Shown: in pieces, positions 8,139 through 64,000 of the stretch | Numbering within the stretch: the stretch's first letter is position 1 | Layout of the letters: each line of letters opens with the position of its first letter | Source: Cladocopium goreaui | Taxonomy: Eukaryota > Sar > Dinophyceae > Suessiales > Symbiodiniaceae | Direction of reading: 5' to 3' | DNA: 64,000 nt | Assembly (NCBI GenBank): GCA_947184155.2 | Contig: CAMXCT020001813.1 | Location: 335,907 to 399,906 of the forward strand | Notes under the pieces: generated by a model | The model's input: only the letters and a program-made list of their open reading frames with translations | The model's database searches: none | Told to the model about the DNA's origin: nothing | Program-made: the position numbers and the translations under genes

Positions 8139-11100
8139 TCACTCAAGAGTTAACGTGCAGCTCGCGCCCGATCTAGTCGGAGATCTCCGAGATGTCATCC
8201 AGTTCATGATTCTGAGCATGTTGGGCAAGAGTCTGCGAAGTGATAGACAAATGGCTGGCAAGGTGGGCCAGGTCGATTGCCGAGAAAAGCTGGATGGGAT
8301 TGGCATTTGGATCTGCGGAAAGAGTTTCGAGCTTCTCAAGGTTCGGTGCATTATCTGCGTTGAAATGGTGTGGAGTTCCTCATTGGGAAAACCAGCCAAA
8401 GTATACAAGTGAATTAATTGGTCGAGCCCTTGTCGAACACGAAAGTCGGGAAATGCCCCTTTGACAACGATGTGGCAACGAGAACGAAATCCGCTAAGAA
8501 GCACTTTGGGTGGAGAAGCCGAGAACGGAGACAAGACTTGTGATATGTTGGTGGGACCTTGATAGATCAGTTCCAATGGTTTTGTTTCCAGCATGAAACC
8601 GAGGAATCCTTCATCCAGCAGTACTTCATATGGTGGAAGGTCACGAAGACGTGAGTCACCAAAGATGAGGCGGTTGTCAGCATATGTGATATGTCGGATG
8701 AATAAGTGGTGATTGCAAAGAATTTGTTTGAAGTTGATGGACCAGATTTGTTTGCTGATGGAGACAACCATGAGGCAGAGTGCTGGAGATAGTGGACTGC
8801 CCATGGGGCTGCCACTGTCGAATGCATTTTTGGCCCAGAGCAAACGTCTGCATTTTCAATGCTGACTTGAGTACAGTAAATCAGGAACATCTTTGATGAT
8901 GATCTTTCTGGTGACGTTAAGTCGACGGAAGGTGCGTCCCTTGATGATGTCGCCTGGATTGTTCGTGTTTCCTGGATAAACCGAGAATGCTTCGTTGTCA
9001 GAAACATCCATGTGAGGTCTCAGGAAATCCAAGAGCATGAACCATGCACCGATGAAGCGATCTTGATCAATGCTGTTGAAGAAACCAGCAAGGTCTTGAT
9101 TGACCAGAATGAGATCTGCGTCAACGGGTGCTGATTTGAGGATGGATAGGAGTGTGTATACATCCCCGGAAGCAAAGTGATTTGGACATGCCACTGGGAT
9201 CAGTTGAAAGATCATTCTGGCGAGGATGTTGATCATAGGACGAAACGGGGAGTCCACAAAGGAGATGATGGGTCGGCCACTGCGAAATTCTTTCTTCCTT
9301 TTTGCCAGGATATAACCAGCTGGCAATTGTCGTCCGTGTCCTACCGCCCAAGGGTAGGGTTTTCCATGTTGTCGGTGTAGAAGATCGACAAGCGATGTGA
9401 CGATGGATTCAGGATCTTGGGAGACCGGTTCGAAAATGGAGGGATCCTGAAAAGTTTTTTCAATGGCTTGGTGTACAAGCACGGGCAGTAGATTCTCAAA
9501 GAAGAGGCTTGTTTGTCTTCACAATGGAAGATAGCGCCCTCGAAGGTTTTTTGAAATGAGTTGATGGATGATTTCGTGATGTGACAAGTGACGTGTTTGG
9601 AATGCCCTGTCCACAGATGTTGGCTGAAATCGGAGATCTCTGAGTTTGGCATGGACGGTAGGCCATTTCGCTTTGTCCAGCCGTGAAGCCCAAGTTTGAG
9701 CTGGTTTTGGTATTCCTTTTTGGAAGGAAATACCTTGTTCAACAAGGAGCCTTCGGCAATGACAGCCAACTCCTCTGGTACGAGTGAGTGAAGTAGTGAA
9801 CCTGCTAAGACCCAGTGAGGATCTGGTGGATCGAGAGCAGCTGTTTTGAAAGGTTCCCACTTTTTGCAACAACACGTTGCAGGTTGTGTGGTGTACCAGT
9901 CCGCGATGGCCTGCTTGTGATTGCAGAGTTGGTCCAGAACAGCTGCATGTTTGATGAAGACCATCTTGAAAGATGGTGTGTGGCATGGAACTTGGTATGG
10001 AAGAACTTGGAGGTGCCACTTTCGTAGGAACTGTTTCAATTGTTGTTGGAGATTGGGAGTGAGGGACCATGGGGCACGGAGTGCCGTTGCTCGTGGAGCA
10101 GGTTTTCCTTTGCACCATTTGATGGACGCATCGATTGCATTCAGTGACAGGGTGCGGAAGGGCTCCTGGATGTTGCTTGCCAAACGACGGAGAGCATAGC
10201 AGAGGGTGAGACCCCCATCATTGGACCGCAGCATTTTGGTCTGTTCAAATCTGGCTCTCGTGTTGGACCCTAAAGCGTGGATGATGGTCCAAGGTTCCAG
10301 TCGGTTTTGAAACCGTTCTGATGTCAAGATCTGACGAACAAGTGTTGGAGTGAACTTGTGTTTGGCTCGACGCCATAACGTGGCCAGACCAAACTGAGCG
10401 TTTGTGTTCAAGGCAAGTTTCTTGAGGATGTCTTTCTTGGGGTGAAAGAATTGGCAAATGAAGGGATCTGGGTTGCCATTCTTGAATGATGGCCATTTCA
10501 AGACTGCGATAGTCGGCTCTTTCAGTGTATATTGGGATGGGTGCCCAGATATACAGGTTGTCATGTTCCCGCCAATAGCGTAGGGCAAGCTCGGCTTGTA
10601 CAAGTCGTTCATAGGTGAGTTGAAGATACTTTCTGGAGCGACTGTACTCCCTGTCAAGGGTATGATGCATAGTTGGGCCGATGTAGAACTTGGGCTGCAT
10701 GTTCACAATGTGGGTGAAACGGATGTAGACGCTTTGAGACTGGAAAAATGGTGTTGAGAAAAGGTTGTGGGCATGAAGTGTTGATCCCCACACATGTGTG
10801 AGGTCGGTACATCCTTCCAAAATTGACTTCAGCTTCTGGTTCGGTCGAAGACCATGGATTACGGCAAGCACCATCATGCAGGTTTGGATGATGCGAAAGC
10901 CTTGAAAAAGGTGAACGCTAAGAGTCATGGTGAAGGGTGTCAAAATGTAGATGATAAGGATCATCGAATGGAGAATCTGAAGATGGGATTGAAGCACTTT
11001 GTGCTTAAGCTTTCTGCGAAGCCAGGGAGGTAGTCAATTGGTAAGACTGATAGCCGCAGTCATGGCACGCAGGAGGTTCAACACATCATAGTTTTTGCCC

Positions 11101-11930
11101 AAGAGGCTAACCGGTATGCCCATCATGACAGCCACTCGTTCGACAGTTTCAAGGGCTTCCGACGGCTGATGTGACCACCAAGTTTCGGTCTTGGCAATGT
11201 TTTCAGTGAGAACTTTCCTCTTTGGCTCAGACAGTGGAAATTCTTTGAGCCATTTGGCGAAAGCTCGCGCAGACAAGGTGGTTGGCATGTGTTGAGCCAG
11301 CCATGGATTGACCGTGGAAGGGCAGACCAACAGGCTGGAAGGATCAAATGCTGGTGTTGGTGGAGGTGTTGGGCCCGTTGAGTTGTTCATGAGGGCCCGC
11401 TATATAGGTGTATTCGCAGGGCTAGATGCCGATGGACCCGTTCTGGGTGGTGTAGAGTTGTCACCAGGGTCTTCACTTGCTCTTGGTGAGGTCGAAGGAG
11501 TTGTTTCATGCGGCCATGGCTGGGACAAAGGGACAGAAGGTGTGCCTGGAGAGCACAGTTGTGTTGGTGGACATGGCATCGTCGGTGAGCAGGGTGGAGT
11601 GGCTTGGCGTGATGGTGGAAGATATGGCAAGGTTGGTGGAATTGACGGAGGAGGAGTTGGTGGAAATTGATGAGTTGACCAATTGGTCTGCATCATGGAT
11701 TGGGACGGATTCATCATGCGTCCCATCATATAAGGTCCCGGCTGGTTTAATGCCAACTGAGGTCGAGCCTGAGGGCGCGGCATGTTCTGAAAGTGCAAAA
11801 TCGACGAGTTCATAGGTCCACGCCATCTCGGAAAGAATGGTAGTTCTGGACGAGCAGCATGAACTTGTCCACGTGGTTCGGTTCGATTCCGCACAGGCGC
11901 CGGCGATCGAGAGCGATCAGAGTCAGCCAT
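8139..11930 (-). pseudogene. Penelope-like retroelement: Pro-rich N-terminus, GIY-YIG nuclease, reverse transcriptase (decayed)
   Basis: One long - strand frame, broken. From 11930 a Pro/Ser-rich region runs to a TAG at 11400-11402. The same frame continues to a TGA at 11034-11036 and on into a GIY-YIG-like domain at about 10730-10465: VYI, then FYIG, a following Arg, and LEMAIIQEWQP carrying the expected Glu. Frameshifts near 10470, 9525 and 8865 separate this from the reverse-transcriptase segments. Those show SGRPIISFVDSP (about 9275), NQDLAGFFNSI with the motif A Asp at about 9095, GSPMGSPLSPALC at about 8813, and YADN at about 8678 where YxDD is usual. RPIxS...SP with a GIY-YIG nuclease is typical of Penelope-like elements, and nuclease-before-RT order is that of the permuted (Chlamys/Naiad-type) branch. 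Two stops and three frameshifts mean this copy cannot make the full protein. Confidence 0.85.
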
Positions 11931-31534: not shown

Positions 31535-31642
31535 GTTTGGATTTTTTCCTATGGGATATATAATTATGATAGCTATGTTAAATTACCAGAGGGTATGTAA
31601 AATGAGGATTACTAGATTTCTAGGATTTCTATGAATATAGGT

Positions 31643-31734
31643 ATGGGTCAATACCTATAGATACATTTTTAGTGGGATGAACATCCATTTACCAGCTATT
31701 TTGGGGTTCACTAGGTACCAGGGTTTTGACCCAT
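31643..31734. mobile_element. 92-bp inverted-repeat element (family 2), copy 1
   Basis: The left end ATGGGTCAATACC pairs with GGTTTTGACCCAT with one mismatch. The interior is homologous to 51437-51533 over its whole length (shared GATGAACATCCAT and CAGCTATTTTG). Non-coding and non-autonomous. Confidence 0.7.
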
Positions 31735-33339: not shown

Positions 33340-34295
33340 TACCAAATGCTGAAGCTGGGACGATGGGATGGCTCAATGGGGAAACCAACCATACCAAGGT
33401 TGAAAGGGTGGGAAAATCTATAGGAAACCGTGGCAGTTCCCATCAAATATGGGAGTTTCCTGCACATGTTGGGTCAAACCATCCCAATGAACATAGCTCT
33501 GGATGACTTACGACTGCACCCTCACTACAAAGATGGTTAGGTTGTGAGTAACCAGCCCTACCATGGTTTCAGCCGAGGCGGGGCCCCGCCACCTCTGCCA
33601 ACGTTAAACTTCTAATCTTGTGCATAATTCGAAATTTGGTGAACATTATATACATAAAGATATTCATTTCAACCAAGTAATTTAGATGAACATCAATATC
33701 AATATCAATTTGTTGTTTAAGCATACACATGTTGGCTTTTGTTTTTACAGATGCTTAGTGCTCCAAATACCATCTTTTTGAAGCTGGAACTATAGTCCCT
33801 CATCTTACTGGTGCTAAAGGTTTGGCATTAAGTCATTCTGCATCATTTCCCTTGGTTGAATCAACCACTTTTGTGGTTTTCACGTGTCAAACGTGGCTTT
33901 CCTATGCTTTTTACCCTCTGGCAAACTAAGAGTTTGCTATGAATCATCATTCTTAAGAAGGGTAATTCATCATTTTTATCATCATTCTTAATGGCTCACT
34001 TTCCATCGCAAACGGTTAAAATGAGCAGTTCATAAAACCCGAGTTATCCCATTGATAATAGGGGAAACTAACCCCACTTTCCAACCAGTTTCAGTTACGA
34101 ATCATGGAATCATCATTTATAATCATATACCATCCCCATTCCAAATGGATGATTTATTTGGCTTGTATATGATTCATTATAAATGATGATTCCACGGATC
34201 GTAAGTGGTCATCTATAATTATCTAATTGATCTATCACCACATCCAAATAGTATTTTTAACATATGTAATTTTAAACCACTAGATTTACATTAGC
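33340..34295. other. Stretch with no supported gene
   Basis: AT-rich sequence leading into the minisatellite, with a family 1 inverted-repeat motif at 33911-33941. A short GC-rich island at 33571-33600 after TTTCAG could be a small exon but cannot be phased. Confidence 0.45.
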
Positions 34296-37200
34296 CATTA
34301 TTAAACCATTGTTAAGCCATTGTTAAACCAGTATTAAACCATTGTTAAACAATTATTAAACCATTATTAAACAATTGTTAAACCATTGTTAAACCATTGT
34401 TAAACCATTGTTAAACCATTATTTAACCATTGTTAAACCATTGTTAAACCATTGTTAAACCATTATTAAACCATTGTTAAACCATTGTTAAATCGTTGTT
34501 CAACCATTGTTAAACCATTATTAAACCATTGTTAAACCATTATTAAACCATTGTTAAACCATTGTTAAACCATTACAAAACCATTGTTAAACCATTGTTA
34601 AACCATTATTAAACCATTATTAAACCATTGTTAAACCATTATTAAACCATTGTTAAACCATTGTTAAACCATTGTTAAACCATTGTTAAACCATTATTGA
34701 ACCATTATTAAACCATTGTTAAACCATTGCTAAACCATTGTTAAACCATTATTGAACCATTGTTAAACCATTGTTAAACCAGTGTTAAACCATTGTTAAA
34801 CCATTATTTAACCATTGTCAACCATTGTTAAACCATTGTTAAGCCATTATTAAGCCTTTCTTAAACCATTGCTAAACCATTGTTAAACCATTATTAAACC
34901 ATTGTTAAACCATTGTTAAACCATTGTTAAACCATTGTTAAACCATTGTTAAACCATTGTTAAACCACTGTTAAACCATTGTTAAACCATTGTTAAACCA
35001 TTGTTAAACCATTATTGAACCATTATTAAACCATTGTTAAACCATTGCTAAACCATTGTTAAACCATTATTGAACCATTGTTAAACCATTGTTAAACCAG
35101 TGTTAAACCATTGTTAAACCATTATTTAACCATTGTCAACCATTGTTAAACCATTGTTAAGCCATTATTAAGCCTTTCTTAAACCATTGCTAAACCATTG
35201 TTAAACCATTATTAAACCATTGTTAAACCATTGTTAAACCATTGTTAAACCATTGTTAAACCATTGTTAAACCATTGTTAAACCACTGTTAAACCATTGT
35301 TAAACCATTGTTAAACCATTGTTAAACCATTATTGAACCATTATTAAACCATTGTTAAACCATTGCTAAACCATTGTTAAACCATTATTGAACCATTGTT
35401 AAACCATTGTTAAACCAGTGTTAAACCATTGTTAAACCATTATTGAACCATTGTTAAGACATTATTAAACCATTATTGAACCATTGTTAAACCATCGTTA
35501 AACCATTGTTAAACCATTGTTAAACCATTGTTAAACCATTATTAAACCATTGTTAAACCATTATTGACCAATTGTTAAACCATTGTTAAACCATTATTAC
35601 TCCATTGTTAAACCATTGTTAAACCATTGTTAAACCATTGCTAAACCATTATTAAGCCTTTCTTAAACCATTGTTAAACCATTGTTAAACCATTGTTAAA
35701 CCATTGTTAAACCATTGTTAAACCATTGTTAAATCATTGTTCAACCATTGTTAAACCATTATTAAACCATTGTTAAACCATTATTAAACCATTGTTAAAC
35801 CATTGTCAAACCATTTTTGAACCATTGTTAAACCATTGTTAAATCAAAGTCAAACCATTGTTAAACCATTGTCAATCCATTGTACAACCATTGTCAAACC
35901 ATTGTTAAACCATTATTGAACCATTGTTAAACCATTGTTAAACCATTGTAAAACCATTATTAATACATTGTTAAACCATTGTTAAACCATTGTTAAACCA
36001 TTGTTAAACCATTATTAAACCATTATTGAACCATTGTTAAACCCATTGTGAAAACATTGTTAAACCATTGTTAAACCATTGTTAAACCATTGTTAAACCA
36101 TTGTTAAACCATTGTTAAACCATTGTTAAGACATTATTAAACCATTATTGAACCATTGTTAAACCATCGTTAAACCATTGTTAAACCATTGTTAAACCAT
36201 TGTTAAACCATTATTAAACCATTGTTAAACCATTATTGACCAATTGTTAAACCATTGTTAAACCATTATTACTCCATTGTTAAACCATTGTTAAACCATT
36301 ATTAAACCATTGTTAAACCATTATTAAACCATTATTAAACCATCATTGAACCATTGTTAAACCATTGTTCAACCATTATTACACTATTGTTAAACTATTG
36401 TTAAACCATTGTTAAACCATTATTAAACCATTATTGAACCATTGTTAAACCATTGTTAAACCATTATTAAACCATTAAACAATTGTTAAACCATTATTAA
36501 ACCATTGTTAAACCATTGTTAAACCGTTGTTAAACCATTATTAAACCATTGTTAAACATATCAAACAATTATTAAACCATTGTTAAACCATTGTTAAACC
36601 ATTGTTAAACCATTGTTAAGCCATTATTAAGCCTTTCTTAAACCATTGTTAAAACAATATTAAACAATTATTAAACCATTGTTAAACCATTGTTAAACCA
36701 TGGTTAAACCATGGTTAAACCATTGTTAAAACAGTGTAAAACCATTGTTAAACCATTATTAAACCATTGTTAAACCATTGTTAAACCATTGTTAAACCAT
36801 TGTTAGACCTTTGTATAACCATTGTTAAGCCATTGTTAAACCATGGTTAAACCATTGTTAAACCATTGTTAAACCATTATTAAACCATTGTTAAACCATT
36901 GTTAAATCGTTGTTCAACCATTGTTAAACCATTATTAAACCATTGTTAAACCATTATTAAACCATTGTTAAACCATTGTTAAACCATTACAAAACCATTG
37001 TTAAACCATTGTTAAACCATTATTAAACCATTATTAAACCATTGTTAAACCATTATTAAACCATTGTTAAACCATTGTTAAAACATTGTTAAACCATTGT
37101 TAAACCATTGTTAAACCATTATTAAACCATTGTTAAACCATTGTCAAACCATTGTGAAACCATTGTCAAACCATTGTTAAACCATTATTAAACCATTGTT

Positions 37201-40112
37201 AAACCATTTTTAAGCCATTGTTAAACCGTTGTTAAACCATTGTTAAACCATTGTAAAACCATTGTTAAACCATTGTTAAACCATTGTTAAGCCATTGTTA
37301 AACCAATGTTAAACCATTGTTAAACCATTGTTAAACCATTATTAAACCATTATAAAACCATTGTTAAAACAACATTAAACACTTATTAAACCATTGTTAA
37401 ACCATTGTTAAACCATTGTTTCACCATTGTTAAACCATTGTTAAACCCTTGTTAAACCATTGTTAAACCATTGCTAAACCATTGTTAAACCATTGTTAAA
37501 CCATTGATAAACCATTGTTAAACCATTGTTAAACCATTGTTAAACCATTGTTAAACCATTGTTAAACCATTGTTAAACCATTGTTAAACCATTGTTCAAC
37601 CATTGTTAAACCATTGATAAACCATTGCTAAACCATTGTTAAACCATTGTTAAACCATTGTTAAACCATTGTTAAACCATTGTTAAACCATTGTTAAACC
37701 AATGTGAAACCAATGTTAAACCATTGTTAAACCATTGTTAAACCATTGTTAAACCATTGTTAAACCATTGTTAAACCATTGTTAAACCATTATTAAACCA
37801 TTTTTAAAACAATATTAAACAATTATTAAACCATTGTTAAACCATTATGAAAAATTCATTATTACACCATTGTTAAACACTTGTTAAACCATTATTAAAC
37901 CATTGCTAAACCATTATTGCACCATTATTAAGCCATTATTAACCATTGTTAAACCATTATTTAAACCATTATTAAACCATTGTTAAACCATTATTAAACC
38001 AGTGTTAAACCATTGTTAAACCATTATTAAACCATTGTTAAACCATTGTTAAAACAATATTAAACAATTATTAAACCATTGTTAAACCATTGATAAACCA
38101 TTGTTAAACCATTATGAAACAATTATTAAACCATTGTTAAACCATTGTTAAACCATTATTAAACCATGGTTAAACCATGGTTCAACCATTGTTAAACCAT
38201 TGTTAAACCATTGTAAAAACAATATTAAACAATTATAAAACCATTGTCAAACCATTGTTGAACCATTATTAAACCCTTATTCAACCATTGTTAAACCATC
38301 ATTAAACCATTGTTAAACTATTGTTAAACCATTGTTAAGCCATTGTTAAACCATTGTTAAACCATTGTTAAACCATTTTTACACCTTTGTATAACCATTG
38401 TTAAGCCATTGTTAAACCATGGTTAAACCATTGTTAAACCATTGTTGAACCATTGTTAAACCATTATTGAACCATTATTAAACCATTGTTAAGCCATTAT
38501 TAAGCGATTGTTAAACCATTGTTAAACCATTGTTAAACCATTGTTAAACCATTGTTAAACCATTGTTAAACCATTGTTAAACCATTGATAAGCCATTGTT
38601 AAACCATTGTTAAACCATTGTTAAACCATTGTTAAACCATTGTTAAACCATTATTAAACCATTGTTAAAACAATATTGAACAATTGTTAAACCAGTGATA
38701 AATCATTGTTAAACCATTGTTGAACCATTGTTAAACCATTGTCAAACCGTCGAAAACCATTATAAAACCATTGTTAAAACAATATTAAACAATTATTAAA
38801 CCATTGTTAAACCATTGTTAAACCATTGTTAAACCATTGTTAAACCAGTGTTAAACCATTGTTAAACCATTATTAAACCATTGTTAAACCATTGTTAAAC
38901 CAGTGTTAAACCATTGTTAAACCATTATTAAACCATTGTTAAACCATTGTTAAAACAATATTAAACAATTATTAAACCGTTGTTAAACCATTATTAAACC
39001 ATTGTTAAAAATATCAAACAATTATTAAACCATTGTTAAACCATTGTTAAACCATTGTTAAACCATTATTAAACCATTATTACACCATTATTAGAACAAT
39101 ATTAAACAATTATTAAACCATTGTTAAACCATTATGAAAAATCCATTATTAAACCATTGTTAAACAATTGTTAAACCATTATTAAACCATTGTTAAACCA
39201 TTGTTAAGCCATTGTTAAACCATTGTTAAACCATTGTTAAACCATTGTTAAACCAGTGTTAAATCATTGTTAAACCATTATGAAAAATCCATTATTAAAC
39301 CATTGTTAAACACTTGTTAAACCATTATTAAACCATTGTTAAACCATTGTTAAACCATTATTAAGCCTTTATTAAACCATTGTTAAAACAATATTAAACA
39401 ATTATTAAACCATTGTTAAACCATTGTTAAACCATAATTAAACCATTGTTAAAACAATATTAAGCAATTCTTAAACCATTGTTAAACCATTGTTAAACCA
39501 TTGTTAAACCATTATTAAACCATTTTTAAAACAATATTAAACAATTATTAAACCATTGTTAAACCATTATGAAAAATTCATTATTACACCATTGTTAAAC
39601 ACTTGTTAAACCATTATTAAACCATTGCTAAACCATTATTGCACCATTATTAAGCCATGATTAAACCATTGTTAAACCATTATTTAAACCATGGTTAAAC
39701 CATGGTTTAACCATTGTTAAACCAGTGTTAAACCATTGTTAAACCATTACTAAACCATTGTTAAACCATTGTTAAAACAATATTAAACAATTATTAAACC
39801 ATTGTTAAACCATTGATAAACCATTGTTAAACCATTATTAAACCATGGTTAAACCATGGTTCAACCATTGTTAAACCATTGTTAAACCATTATTAAACCA
39901 TGGTTAAACCATGGTTCAACCATTGTTAAACCAGTGTTAAACCATTGTTAAACCATTCTTAAACCATTGTTAAACCATTGTTAAAACAATATTAAACAAT
40001 TATTGAACCATTGTTAAACCATTATCAAACCATTGATAAACCATTGTTAAACCATTGTTGAGACAATATTAAACAATTATTAAACCGTTGTTAAGCCAGT
40101 GTTAAACCATTG
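34296..40112. repeat. 5.8-kb minisatellite of the 11-bp unit TTAAACCATTG, with higher-order repeats
   Basis: Roughly 530 head-to-tail copies of TTAAACCATTG and close variants (ATTATTAAACC, AACAATATTAAAC). Because the unit is 11 bases and carries TAA on both strands, all six frames are closed throughout. A block starting CCATTATTGA recurs at 34691, 35009 and 35327, exactly 318 bp apart. Longer duplications are also visible: about 34487 and 36901; 35451 and 36123; 37841 and 39563. The unit is not a telomere repeat. CATGGTTAAACCATGG palindromes occur near 36690, 38165 and 39690. Confidence 0.97.
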
Positions 40113-51411: not shown

Positions 51412-51436
51412 CTTTGGGGTGAATCGTGATCTGGCT

Positions 51437-51533
51437 ATGGATCAATACCTATACATACCATTTTTAGGATGATGAACATCCATAAATCCCAGCTATTTTG
51501 ATGTGAACTACAGGGGTACAAGGTTTTGACACA
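51437..51533. mobile_element. Inverted-repeat element (family 2), copy 2
   Basis: Homologous end to end with 31643-31734: ATGGATCAATACCTAT at the left, GATGAACATCCAT and CAGCTATTTTG inside, AGGTTTTGACA at the right. It lies in the short spacer between the preceding stop codon (51411) and the SmD1 start (51648). Confidence 0.65.
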
Positions 51534-51647
51534 CTGCCATTTGTCCATGAGGGGCTGCAGGTCAACATGTTTCTGTCATTTCAAGTCGCGCAGTGAGAGT
51601 GAGACGTGAGGATCGACAAAGAGGGGAAGGCTCAGTGACCTGAAATC

Positions 51648-54600
51648 ATGAGACTCGTCAGGCCCGAGAGGGTCCATCTTGAGGGTTAGTCACACCAATG
51701 CTATACGTATGATGTTTAGGTATGGAAATTTAGATTGCTTGCAGCATCGATGATTTGTCGCCATAGCTGCTTCTGTCGAGAATTACACAAGTTTCCGCAC
51801 AAAATACACATAGCTTTACTGTACACCCACACTTCAATTTTCGTGCTTCCGTTTTGGTTGGTTGCTGACTCACATTGTTTGATTCTTTGTGCACAAAATG
51901 CTGGTTCAAGCTCATTGGCTTGTCGTATGATAAGCTGGTTCATTGGATTGTCGGGTTACAATCGGTCAACACCCAGGTGGGTAGTATCCGCCTCATGTGA
52001 CAGTTATAAAAAAGGTTACAACTACCCAATACCTGATTCTGATAGCTAATGGATTATGGGCCCAATATCCAATGAATTGTATACCAATACCAATTATAAT
52101 CGGTTATAACCTACCTATTGGATTATAATAGTGTCTGTCACCTTTTTTACCGCTCTAAAATTTGTGTAGCGGGTGATGAATCCCCGATCTTCGCCGACTT
52201 ATCAAGCTTCTGTGAAGATTGGATCCATTAGGGAGATGGGATACTCAATCTGATATTGATATATTGATATATGATATATTATATAAATTTATATGATCAA
52301 TATTGAATAAACAAGACTTCACAAGAAACTTCACTGTTTTTGATATGTGTTGATTCACTGACCCCCAATATTTCCTGCATTTTGATCTATATCCATGAAA
52401 CTACATGACTCTTTTCAGACTCGAGACTTCTGAAATTGGCCTCAAGTGAGATACAGGTGAACGGATGATGTCTCCTCATTGTTGCAAGTTGAACCAGTTA
52501 CAGTAATCGTAGGTGAAATCTCCTTTTGTTGTTGGTTGGATAGTTGGATCCCGCATTCTTGGTGCCCAACATCCCATTGTTTTGGGTGTTACTTGGACCA
52601 TCCATGTAAACATTCTTTTTAAGCCAACCATCCTGTTTTTTCACCAATGGGTCACTGTATACCCTCATGTTTGATCATTTTTCGCAAGTTCCATCCAACA
52701 TTTCATTGGTATTCTCTGAAAATGTTGGGCAAACCCCCCGTCCATCCACTGGTTCATGATCATTTCCCCTATTATTTAATTGCTATTTGGGGGGCACATC
52801 CCATATTTTAATACACATCCACATCATATAGTTTTTTTTCTTTCATGATCTTTTTATATCCATGATATCATATCCATGATATCTCTATTAGTCTATGATA
52901 TCTCTATGATATCCATTCATTTCGTTCATTTTATATCCCGGTCTTCTATTTTTTTCAGTGGAAATCTCCCTTTTTTTCCATTTTTTCTGTAAAATCCCAT
53001 AGGTTCTTGATGAAGCTGAGCAACGAGAGCGTCGTGGTGGAGCTCAAGAACAGCACCGTGGTGCAGGTCCGGAAGAGCTGGGAGAGCTGCGCAGCCCCTT
53101 TCAAAAAGGCGTTGGAAGGTTGGAAAAATGGTGGGATATCAAGGGGATATCAAGGGGATATTTCTGATACATGGAATATGGATGAAATTCATGGTGGAAT
53201 ATTTAAGATTGATACCTTCGGGTGTCAAGCATGGCTGGGAAAGCCCCGAAGTAGCCCATTGAGGTCAAACGCATCGAAGTCAATGGATGATGCTCCAGCA
53301 AGCCATGTTTGATAACACCGGAGTCAAATCGTTCAGAATGGCTTTTTGTGACCAATAGAAATGGGGACTTCAAAGATTAAAATTGCACTGTAGCCTCGCC
53401 CACACTGGATCCCATCCTCGTCTCCGAAGGGACAGCTGAGCGATTCAACGCTACAGAATTTCAGCCATTTTTTGAGAAAATCATCTCCAACTTTCAGATT
53501 TCGTCCACTTGCCGGTTGATGGTGGATGATGGTTGTGGATTGCCAGTGATCTTTATCGCTTTTCCATTAAATTGACATGGTCTTTCGCCCAAGAGTGAGA
53601 GGTCCCAGGCAACCCAGGCTTATTTTTGTCAGCCCCAGCCATGCCAAAATGTGAATGTCCTGGACAGGGAACTATCACCGGTGCGGGTGCTTAGATTTGG
53701 GCGGGGACATAGATGTCCATTGATGTCCATTTATAAAGAGGGGTACATAGCTCCTGTGAACATTTTTGAAATATATATGTATATATTGTATATATTGTAT
53801 ATATATATATATATGTATGTATGTATGTAATGTAATGTAATGTAATGTAATGTAATGTAGTGTAGTGTAATGTAATGTAATGTAATGTATGTATGTATAT
53901 GTATAATTATGTATACATATGATCTATAATTTGATATTTTAGGAAATGATGGAAACCTTGGTAAGCGTACAACTCATTCCCGTGAATTCTCCAGTGACCA
54001 TGTGTCTCACTTCAGTGCGGCAGCCCCGGGCCTCCTGGACTCCAAGGTGTGGATATGTCGATGAACGTGCACATGAAGAACATCAAGTTCACCGTGAAGG
54101 GCAAACCTCCGGTTTCCATGGATCACCTGACCATCCGAGGTAACAACGTACGGCGGGGAGGGCCCAGATGGCGGACGTTGGATGGGAGAAATTTCTTGGA
54201 TCGCCATCATGGGAAGAGTCCTGTAGCATTTTCACTTCTTTCTGATTTCAGAGTCATCACTTTTTTGCCTCAAAAAAAGTGCAATTCACTAGCTCAATCC
54301 AGCTGAATCCAGCTGACTTTCTGATTTTTCTTGATCATACCCTAATTAAACATTGACTCTCGGAATGACAATTTGTTCTTGTAGATGAACATTGTCTTCC
54401 AACCCCTCATGTTAACCTCCAGTAAACGAACATAACTATGGAAATCCATAGGTTTCCCTTTCGGAAAAGATCTAGAAATGCGCCAGCGAGCGATAGCCAA
54501 GGTATGTCATCCTCCCTGATAGCATTCCCTTGGACACTTTGTTGGTGGACGATGCCAAGCGTCTTCCCAAGGCCTCCGAGTATTGAAATTGCTTGATTTA

Positions 54601-54827
54601 TGGCAATTGATAGGGTACTGATAGGGTGCCGTATTTTTTTTGGGTGTATATATATATATATTATAATATGGTAAATCAAAACGATGTACCCAGATTGATT
54701 TCCTGAATCTTTCAGTCGCTGCTTAGTGGTGAGATGCCCATTTGCCGACTCAGTGGATCCGCAGGTGAAGTCACTTGCAGGCCGCGGTCGAGGCAGAGGT
54801 CGTGGCCGTGGCACTAAGAAGAAGTGA
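51648..54827 (+). CDS. SNRPD1: Small nuclear ribonucleoprotein SmD1, complete, six exons
   Basis: Exons 51648-51661, 53003-53066, 53668-53680, 54047-54152, 54502-54571 and 54765-54827 total 330 nt, giving 109 aa plus TGA. The protein follows SmD1 from end to end. It starts MRLVRFLMKLSNESVVVELK and continues GTITGVDMSMNVHMKNIKF (Sm1 motif, to about residue 45). LTIRGNNVRYVILPDSIP (residues 58-75) carries the Sm2 IRGxN motif, then LDTLLVDD, and the C-terminus is an RG-repeat tail ending TKKK. SmD1 is one of seven Sm proteins that ring the Sm site of U1, U2, U4 and U5 snRNAs; the RG tail is a known site of arginine methylation. Introns 1, 4 and 5 have GC donors, 2 and 3 have GT; exon 3 is only 13 nt and supplies GTITG. 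Human SmD1 is 119 aa, mainly through a longer RG tail. Confidence 0.96.
53820..53890. repeat. TGTAA pentanucleotide repeat within SmD1 intron 3
   Basis: About a dozen TGTAA/TGTAG units after a TATATATG tract, between the 13-nt exon and exon 4. Confidence 0.9.
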
Positions 54828-61455: not shown

Positions 61456-64000
61456 AGTACCTTTTTGATCCTTTTTGTTGGTTTGTGGATTGTCGCTGAC
61501 ATGACGACGCATTGATATTTGAAAAGATTTGAACGAGATGAAACAGTTGGAGCCTGATCAACAATTCAAAGACAGTGAGTCTATTTGGTTGTGCTCCGCA
61601 ACATCTTGGGGTGATTCTGTCAAGCCCCTTTGCCCTACCCACGAACAGATCCAGAGTCTGTGGCAATTCGCCTGCTAGCGACAGCCACTGTTGCTGGTCT
61701 TTTCGCACACCGTTGGCCGGGTGTAGGGCGCATGCTGGGGTGCTCTCCTAACATCAGCTGTGCTGGGGACAGGTTTGGCACCTAGTCTTTCTGGCCAACG
61801 CATCCTGATGTCAGGATGTATGACAGCGAGACGATGCGCTAAGGTGCTCGCTGGGGGCTTCCAGGCTATTCCTGGCCGGCATGTTGTGAGGGGAGGCCAA
61901 AGTTTGCAGATGACAATGTTGCTGATTCCCTTCTTGAGTGGCGGCGTGCCTTCCTATATTATGAACTATGGCAGCTGCGGCCTACTGTTGGCTGTTGTCT
62001 GCCCTTGCCATGTGTCTGATTACCGCTCACAGCAAAATGATAGCCACAATGTCACAATGTTTTTTGAGGGATGTGGATTCCGCAGATGCAGCATCATGAT
62101 GCACCATGCGCATTTATGCTACGTCTGCTAAGTACCTTTTTGATTCTTTTTGTTGGTTTGTGGATTGCGACTGGCATGATGGCGCATGTTCTTGAGAATT
62201 TCAGCGATTTGAACAACATGTAACATGAGACATGTGGAACTTAATCAACAATTTCAAAGACAGTGAGTTTATTTGGGTTGTGTTCTGCAACATCTTGGGC
62301 TGGTTGCGCCAAGAACCCTTGCCCTACCCACAAACTGATTCAGAGTCTGTGGCAATTCGCTTTCTTGCGAGGGCCACTGTTGCTGGTCTTTTCGCACACC
62401 GTTGGCCGGGTGTGGGGCGCATGCAGGGGTGCCATCTCAACATTAGAGTCTGGTGGCTGGTGTGGTACCTAGTCTTTCGGGCCAACGCATCCTGATGTCA
62501 GGATGTATGACAGCGAGACGATGCGCTAAGGTGCTCGCTGGGGGCTTCCAGGCTATTCCTGGCCGGCATGTCGTGAGGGGAGGCCAAGCTTTGCAGATGA
62601 CAATGTTGCTGATTCCCTTCTTGAGTGGTGGCGTGCCTTCCTATATTGTGAACTATGGCAGCTGTGGCCTACTTTTGGCTGTTGTCTGCCCTTGCCATGT
62701 GTCTGATTACCGCTCACAGCAAAATGATAGCCACAATGTCACAATGTTTTTTGAGGGATGTGGATTCCGCAGATGCAGCATCATGATGCACCATGCGCAT
62801 TTATGCTACGTCTGCTAAGTACCTTTTTGATTCTTTTTGTTGGTTTGTATATTGCGACTGGCATGATGGCGCATGTTCTTGAGAATTTCAGCGATTTGAA
62901 CAACATGTAACATGAGACATGTGGAACTTAATCAACAATTTCAAAGACAGTGAGTTTATTTGGGTTGTGTTCTGCAACATCTTGGGCTGGTTGCGCCAAG
63001 AACCCTTGCCCTACCCACAAACTGATTCAGAGTCTGTGGCAATTCGCTTTCTTGCGACGGCCAATGTTGCTGGTCTTTTCGCACACCGTTGGCCGGGTGT
63101 GGGGCGCATGCCGGGGTGCCATCTCAACATTAGAGTCTGGTGGCTGGTGTGGTACCTAGTCTTTCTGGCCAACACGTCCTGATGTCAGGACGTATGACAG
63201 CGAGACGATGCGCTAAGGTGCTCGCTGGGGGCTTCCAGGCTATTCCTGGCCGGCATGTCGTGAGGGGAGGCCAAGCTTTGCAGATGACAATGTTGCTGGT
63301 TTCCCTTTCGAGTGAATGTGGCACGCCTTCCTGCATCGTGAACTTTGGCAGCTGCGGCCTACTGTTGGCTGTTGTCTGCCCTTGCCATGTGTCTGATTAC
63401 CGCTCACAGCAAAATGATAGCCACAATGTCACAATGTTTTTTGAGGGATGTGGATTCCGCAGATGCAGCATCATGATGCACCATGCGCATTTATGCTACG
63501 TCTGCTAAGTACCTTTTTGATTCTTTTTGTTGGTTTGTATATTGCGACTGGCATGATGGCGCATGTTCTTGAGAATTTCAGCGATTTGAACAACATGTAA
63601 CATGAGACATGTGGAACTTAATCAACAATTTCAAAGACAGTGAGTTTATTTGGGTTGTGTTCTGCAACATCTTGGGCTGGTTGCGCCAAGAACCCTTGCC
63701 CTACCCACAAACTGATTCAGAGTCTGTGGCAATTCGCTTTCTTGCGACGGCCACTGTTGCTGGTCTTTTCGCACACCGTTGGCCGGGTGTGGGGCGCATG
63801 CAGGGGTGCCATCTCAACATTAGAGTCTGGTGGCTGGTGTGGTACCTAGTCTTTCGGGCCAACACGTCCTGATGTCAGGACGTATGACAGCGAGACGATG
63901 CGCTAAGGTGCTCGCTGGGGGCTTCCAGGCTATTCCTGGCCGGCATGTCGTGAGGGGAGGCCAAGCTTTGCAGATGACAATGTTGCTGATTCCCTTCTTG
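61456..64000 (+). repeat. Tandem array of ~687-bp units, at least 3.7 copies, continuing past the window
   Basis: Units start at AGTACCTTTTTGAT: 61456-62130 (675 bp), 62131-62817 (687), 62818-63507 (690) and 63508 to the window end. Units 2-4 are nearly identical. Unit 1 is diverged in its first half but close to the others in its second. Two + strand open frames recur: one of 87 codons, start MWNLINNFKDSEFIWVVF (62232, 62919, 63609), and one of 121-122 codons containing GSCGLLLAVVCPCHVSDYR and ending HHAHLCYVC. The extra 3 bp in unit 3 keep the second frame open. The frames overlap each other, carry no recognised domain, and the first is broken in unit 1, so coding is unproven; this may be a gene array or a satellite. 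Confidence 0.85.

Follow-up and report, generated by a model that had tools for sequence, protein, structure and literature searches.

The window, by which we mean the whole stretch of 64,000 nucleotides that was analysed, carries on its forward strand a gene for SmD1, a core protein of the spliceosome, whose coding sequence is predicted to be divided among six exons as follows.

51648..51661, + strand: SmD1 exon 1, 14 coding nt, MRLV plus 2 nt; placed by human-template spliced alignment and a shuffle test
51662..53002, + strand: SmD1 intron 1, GC-AG, 1341 nt; AG acceptor present solely with the GC-AG placement
53003..53066, + strand: SmD1 exon 2, 64 nt; joined frame and spliced alignment
53067..53667, + strand: SmD1 intron 2, GT-AG, 601 nt; joined frame and spliced alignment
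53668..53680, + strand: SmD1 exon 3, the microexon, 13 nt, GGAACTATCACCG, encoding GTIT and the first base of a G codon; found in 12 of 12 alignment runs
53681..54046, + strand: SmD1 intron 3, GT-AG, 366 nt; joined frame and spliced alignment
54047..54152, + strand: SmD1 exon 4, 106 nt; joined frame and spliced alignment
54153..54501, + strand: SmD1 intron 4, GC-AG, 349 nt; spliced alignment and junction sliding
54502..54571, + strand: SmD1 exon 5, 70 nt; 3' border left loose by the protein
54572..54764, + strand: SmD1 intron 5, probably GC-AG, 193 nt; donor uncertain
54765..54827, + strand: SmD1 exon 6, encoding VKSLAGRGRGRGRGRGTKKK and ending in the stop codon; joined frame and spliced alignment

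When joined, these exons give a reading frame of 109 amino acids followed by a stop. The joined protein matches the Pfam LSM family (PF01423) with an E-value of 2.1e-17 and 63 bits against a cut-off of 23.4, and its best match among PDB sequences is 8xi2_c (E 8.8e-44). Sequences named SmD1 make up the 11 best of 41 PDB matches (E 8.8e-44 to 1e-16) and are followed by a putative snRNP protein (7.1e-16), LSm10 (1.5e-12), and LSm2 (1.1e-10), so that the protein is closest to SmD1, ahead of other Sm and Lsm proteins. The C-terminal GRG-rich tail of SmD1 is also present, as AGRGRGRGRGRGTKKK in exon 6. These data confirm the original prediction of an SmD1 gene with six exons at these coordinates, the junctions themselves being predicted. 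The product would be expected to assemble into the Sm ring on snRNA, and dinoflagellates are reported to have conserved proteins of this ring (PMC12787238). The host had also been taken for a dinoflagellate, and this is borne out by the genome (1.166 Gb in 6202 contigs), where the 21-base dinoflagellate spliced leader occurs 251 times with at most one mismatch as against 0 times for the reversed control.

Exon borders were examined with a purpose-written spliced protein-to-DNA aligner that by default allows GT, GC, and GA donors and slightly favors AG|G, defaults that build in the G of the donor and part of the uniformity of AG|G. With a human SmD1 template, the borders of introns 1-4 and the start of exon 6 were identical to those of the model; for intron 5 the donor was placed at 54577 instead of 54571, and the alignment ended before the non-conserved end of exon 6. 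Restriction to GT donors lowered the score with this template from 307 to 294, with loss of the MRLV start and of the V of NNVRY. We also shifted each donor together with its acceptor, over at most 8 bases and with the protein unchanged. For introns 1 and 4 an AG acceptor was present solely in the GC-AG placement, and GC donors are thus firmly predicted at both. When the 2 kb upstream were shuffled 10,000 times, the score of the 14-nt exon 1 was reached 14 times. Retention of any single one of the five introns would end the frame within the retained intron.

The donor of intron 5 is less constrained. Across a robustness set of 12 runs (three templates by four donor rules), it fell at 54571 (GC), 54577 (GA), 54560 (GT, with the intron ending at 54753), or at other sites, depending on the template and the rule, and it sits in a non-conserved linker that differs between templates. 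We chose the GC donor at 54571 because the remaining SmD1 introns follow an AG|G pattern, and consider it probable. As modelled, the donors of introns 1 to 5 are GC, GT, GT, GC, and GC, with AG|G at all five acceptors. The statement that the protein fixes every border thus holds for introns 1-4 and the start of exon 6, not for the donor of intron 5; likewise, of the three GC donors that had been proposed, two are firm and one, that of intron 5, is probable.

The most distinctive element of the gene is the 13-nt exon 3, which was recovered in all 12 alignment runs, including those limited to GT donors. The conserved GTITG was said to be restored by this exon, and indeed, if exon 2 is joined straight to exon 4, the frame is lost and GTITG is missing. 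Thirteen bases are short enough to raise the concern that the match arose by chance and that the real junction is different. To this we assign practically no probability, given the choice of the exon in every run, the out-of-frame alternative, and the outcome of two comparisons: the exon scores 26, against 8 for the runner-up, when the AG-bounded 13-nt candidates within the 980 bases that separate exons 2 and 4 are ranked, and none of 20,000 dinucleotide shuffles of that interval reached the GTITG score of 26, the best shuffle scoring 22. Predicted from protein conservation, the exon lies within the 1-15 nt range of internal coding microexons. It had been called unusual, and no other among the 28 accepted internal exons is as short; exons of 21, 21, and 28 nt come close behind, however, plants are documented to have exons of at most 15 nt, and its rank among the 28 says little on genome-wide rarity as very short aligner pieces were dropped elsewhere. 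A literature search by title and start of abstract, with subscription papers mostly outside its reach, found nothing on microexons in dinoflagellates or in SmD1. The microexon is the sole uncommon feature of the gene, of a known kind, and mildly noteworthy.

Skipping of the microexon would shift the frame and lead, after VQVWICR*, to a stop after five codons. The mammalian SmB gene tunes its own level by a comparable splicing switch, and the early stop could in principle serve in the same way, with skipping producing a truncated SmD1 message and letting the cell tune its SmD1 level. We regard such regulation as distinctly unlikely: a frameshift would follow from skipping any exon with a length not divisible by three and is therefore unspecific, and no regulatory element was identified, although microexons are spliced with reduced efficiency according to the accessible portion of PMC8831610. 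Constitutive inclusion of the microexon is the reading we favor, since its omission would truncate the protein.

To determine whether the GC donors are peculiar to SmD1, we compared them with a control set of 33 accepted introns from elsewhere in the genome, drawn from nine gene copies that represent eight other splicing genes and were selected for having conserved templates. The control donors comprise 16 GC, 10 GT, and 7 GA, and are therefore non-GT (GC or GA) in 23 of 33 cases; the junctions often slide by a few bases with the protein unchanged, as in PHF5A. Lsm6, two SmG copies, Lsm5, Lsm8, SmD2, and Lsm4 together contribute 21 introns (11 GC, 5 GT, 5 GA), PHF5A contributes five (2 GC, 2 GT, 1 GA), and DIM1 seven (3 GC, 3 GT, 1 GA). 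All introns of PHF5A and DIM1 were kept. The 21 from the Sm and Lsm genes were kept out of 44 aligner introns in eight loci, the other 23, among them all nine introns of an Lsm4-like gene (locus L026), being dropped by eye for poorly conserved ends or very short forced pieces. By a hand count the dropped introns contain 10 GC, 8 GT, and 5 GA donors, which indicates that selection is not the source of the GC share. Prp8, considered as a larger source of introns, was located on contig C4179, where the frames of a 7.5-kb stretch were listed, and is not part of the 33-intron count. At the control rate, the chance of finding at least three GC donors among five introns is 0.47. The GC donors of SmD1 are ordinary for the host genome; the claimed reliance of a core spliceosome gene on non-canonical donors is real, but does not set this gene apart.

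Two duplicated genes of the control set bear this out. Tandem SmG copies at C569:574000-589400 (L024 and L025) are identical in protein over 69 residues and have equal lengths for their last three exons, while their homologous introns differ in length and, for one of these introns, a GC donor in one member of the pair corresponds to GT in its counterpart. PHF5A is present as an intact intronless copy (C2503:44335-44646, L067) and as a multi-exon copy (C1468, L068) with donors in the order GT, GC, GA, GT, GC. The spliced part of the latter (91 amino acids) is identical in protein to the intronless copy, with 224 of 273 nucleotides identical, and this second encoding of the same 91 residues supports the frame of the spliced copy across five junctions. 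Another similar multi-exon PHF5A copy is found on C5358.

We also examined the copy number of SmD1. A protein search of the whole genome (E up to 10, best candidates scored) returned, beyond the window gene, one more convincing match, a last exon of SmD1 type at positions 11045-11107 of contig C2855 (L032); the sole other row was a 29%-identical stretch with two stops (E 1.03). The same search gave no convincing match to a second exon 2, 4, or 5, and spliced alignment of C2855:1-18900 found no SmD1 exon beyond that last one. Compared with exon 6, the C2855 exon has 12 synonymous and 0 nonsynonymous codon differences among 21 codons, stop included, and begins AG|GTC where exon 6 begins AG|GTG. 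This pattern points to purifying selection on the C2855 exon, which is likely part of another SmD1 gene whose 5' exons are missing or escaped detection. The window locus may therefore not be the cell's sole source of SmD1. The earlier wording that expression of this core protein depends on non-canonical donors is weakened to that extent. With a further working copy of SmD1, or of its last exon, probably present in the genome, one could propose that the window locus is silent and that SmD1 is made from a gene elsewhere. This is extremely improbable in our estimation: the window copy is intact through its 109 codons, and the searches of the genome and of C2855 turned up a single further convincing SmD1 exon, the last one.

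A potential explanation for the GC donors is a compensating change in U1 snRNA. The 5' end of U1 reads ACTTACCTG in 21 and ACTTATCTG in 1 of the 22 U1 matches listed, and an A-to-G change that would pair with the C at +2 is found in 0 of these 22; with 21 canonical and none compensating, no altered U1 among those listed explains the GC donors. The other snRNAs are largely canonical as well. The U6 sequence TACAGAGA (ACAGAGA) is kept in all six loci read, of 48 matches listed. Relative to the canonical forms, U2 has GTAGTATCTG in two of three copies read and GAAGTATCTG in the third, and the U5 loop has GCCTTTTACT in two of three copies read and GCCTTCTACT in the third.

We then asked how well the donors pair with this U1. 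Over the 26 accepted Sm/Lsm donors, SmD1 included, pairing at +3 to +6 (wobble counted) occurs at 43 of 104 positions, or 1.65 of 4 per donor, where chance would give 1.5 of 4 if equal bases are assumed. These donors therefore have no U1 complementarity above chance at +3 to +6. On the exon side, 17 of the 26 donors have G at -1 and 13 have A at -2. Donor choice thus seems to rest more on the end of the exon and on other factors than on intronic pairing with U1. A weak 5' splice signal has already been published for S. minutum (PMC4083563). The lack of intronic pairing above chance has a possible consequence for the microexon: lying between two weak donors, its inclusion might be sensitive to snRNP supply, in which case the 13-nt exon could act as a built-in gauge of the dinoflagellate spliceosome's own capacity, with skipping shutting off SmD1. 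We hold this proposal to be highly unlikely. Constitutive inclusion remains our preferred reading.

The snRNA genes themselves are clustered. In three of the four loci scanned (L034, L039, L058), all on contig C5084, genes for SRP RNA, U1, U2, U5, U4, and U6 lie side by side on one strand, and the fourth locus, on C12, has U6 alone. U1 repeats every 2.7-4.8 kb on C5084, and on C4692 and C4795, where only U1 and U6 were located, the two alternate.

An introner origin of the SmD1 introns was considered and rejected, as the first and last 60 bases share no exact inverted repeat of at least 7 in any of the five introns. Within the window and the fetched loci, copies of these introns amount to partial matches of 23-40 bp for introns 2 and 4; given that scope, an old or diverged introner origin is still conceivable. 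Just upstream of SmD1, a repeat at 51428-51543 recurs with 83-89% identity in four fetched loci (L024-L027) and with 85% identity at 31642-31703 of the window. Elsewhere in the window, a satellite of 5.8 kb at 34295-40112 consists of about 528 copies of the 11-base unit CCATTGTTAAA, with a GC content of 25-28% and a GC skew of about -0.4. Three similar open frames spaced about 690 bases apart at 61727-63508 have in common the text SLSGQ(R/H)(I/V)LMSG(C/R)MTARRCAKVLAGGFQAIPGRHVVRGGQ, and the middle frame has no Pfam match. Large frames on the - strand at 8139-11399 resemble parts of a reverse transcriptase by eye; four of these tested gave no Pfam match above cut-off. A scan of the window against Rfam returned nothing at the gathering threshold, and Pfam returned nothing above its curated cut-off for ten other window ORFs.

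We conclude, with a probability of roughly 90%, that the window contains a functional, intron-rich SmD1 gene of a dinoflagellate, probably one of the Symbiodiniaceae, whose five introns are spliced by the ordinary major spliceosome and whose 13-nt exon is constitutive. The host's major spliceosome would use donors of the GC, GT, or GA type together with an AG|G acceptor, and the RNA would be spliced as modelled, with the microexon presumably included in every message. This conclusion is based on the full-length protein match, the template-guided splicing, the null tests, the mix of donors elsewhere in the genome, and the largely canonical U1, U2, U5, and U6. The gene model is real; its striking parts are normal for the organism, and the 13-nt exon is uncommon but of a known kind. 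With two firm GC donors and a 13-nt exon, SmD1 illustrates cleanly how annotation by the standard GT-AG rule would break a gene. The side result on donors and U1 carries more weight than the SmD1 gene itself, and the gene set makes concrete the question of how a spliceosome with canonical U1 and weak donors finds its donor sites.

In comparison with known systems, the window protein shares the Sm sequence and the GRG tail with SmD1 (SNRPD1) of other eukaryotes, and at 109 amino acids is shorter than the 119 amino acids of the human chain 1b34_A. Plants are well known to have microexons of 1-15 nt (PMC8831610); SmD1 exon 3 is like these small microexons in being very short, coding, and required for the frame, and unlike them in lying in a core Sm gene of a dinoflagellate host. 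For U1, the genome differs from Amoebophrya A25 and A120, for which the accessible sections of PMC7789003 report that U1 was not detected. A cluster of all five snRNAs is described for S. minutum, and its likeness to the unit on C5084 makes a host from the Symbiodiniaceae likely; the SRP RNA found in the C5084 unit is not mentioned for it in the text we had of PMC4083563. A close likeness is with the GC-AG and GA-AG introns of the Symbiodiniaceae; the original prediction had held GC and GA donors to be known in dinoflagellates, and they are published for Symbiodinium (PMC4083563, PMC11453091). In S. minutum, GC donors are about as frequent as GT, the acceptor AG is followed by G, and the 5' signal is weak (PMC4083563); GC/GA donors account for 25-74% in Symbiodiniaceae (PMC11453091); and the predominant donors in three Symbiodinium genomes are GC/GT/GA, GT/GC/GA, and GT/GC (PMC5177918). 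As far as the available parts of these three papers go, the window genome shares with them a similar frequency of GC and GT, the use of GA, the AG|G acceptor, and the weak 5' signal, and we found no difference, the two firm and one probable GC donors among the five SmD1 introns being near the 16 of 33 for the genome.
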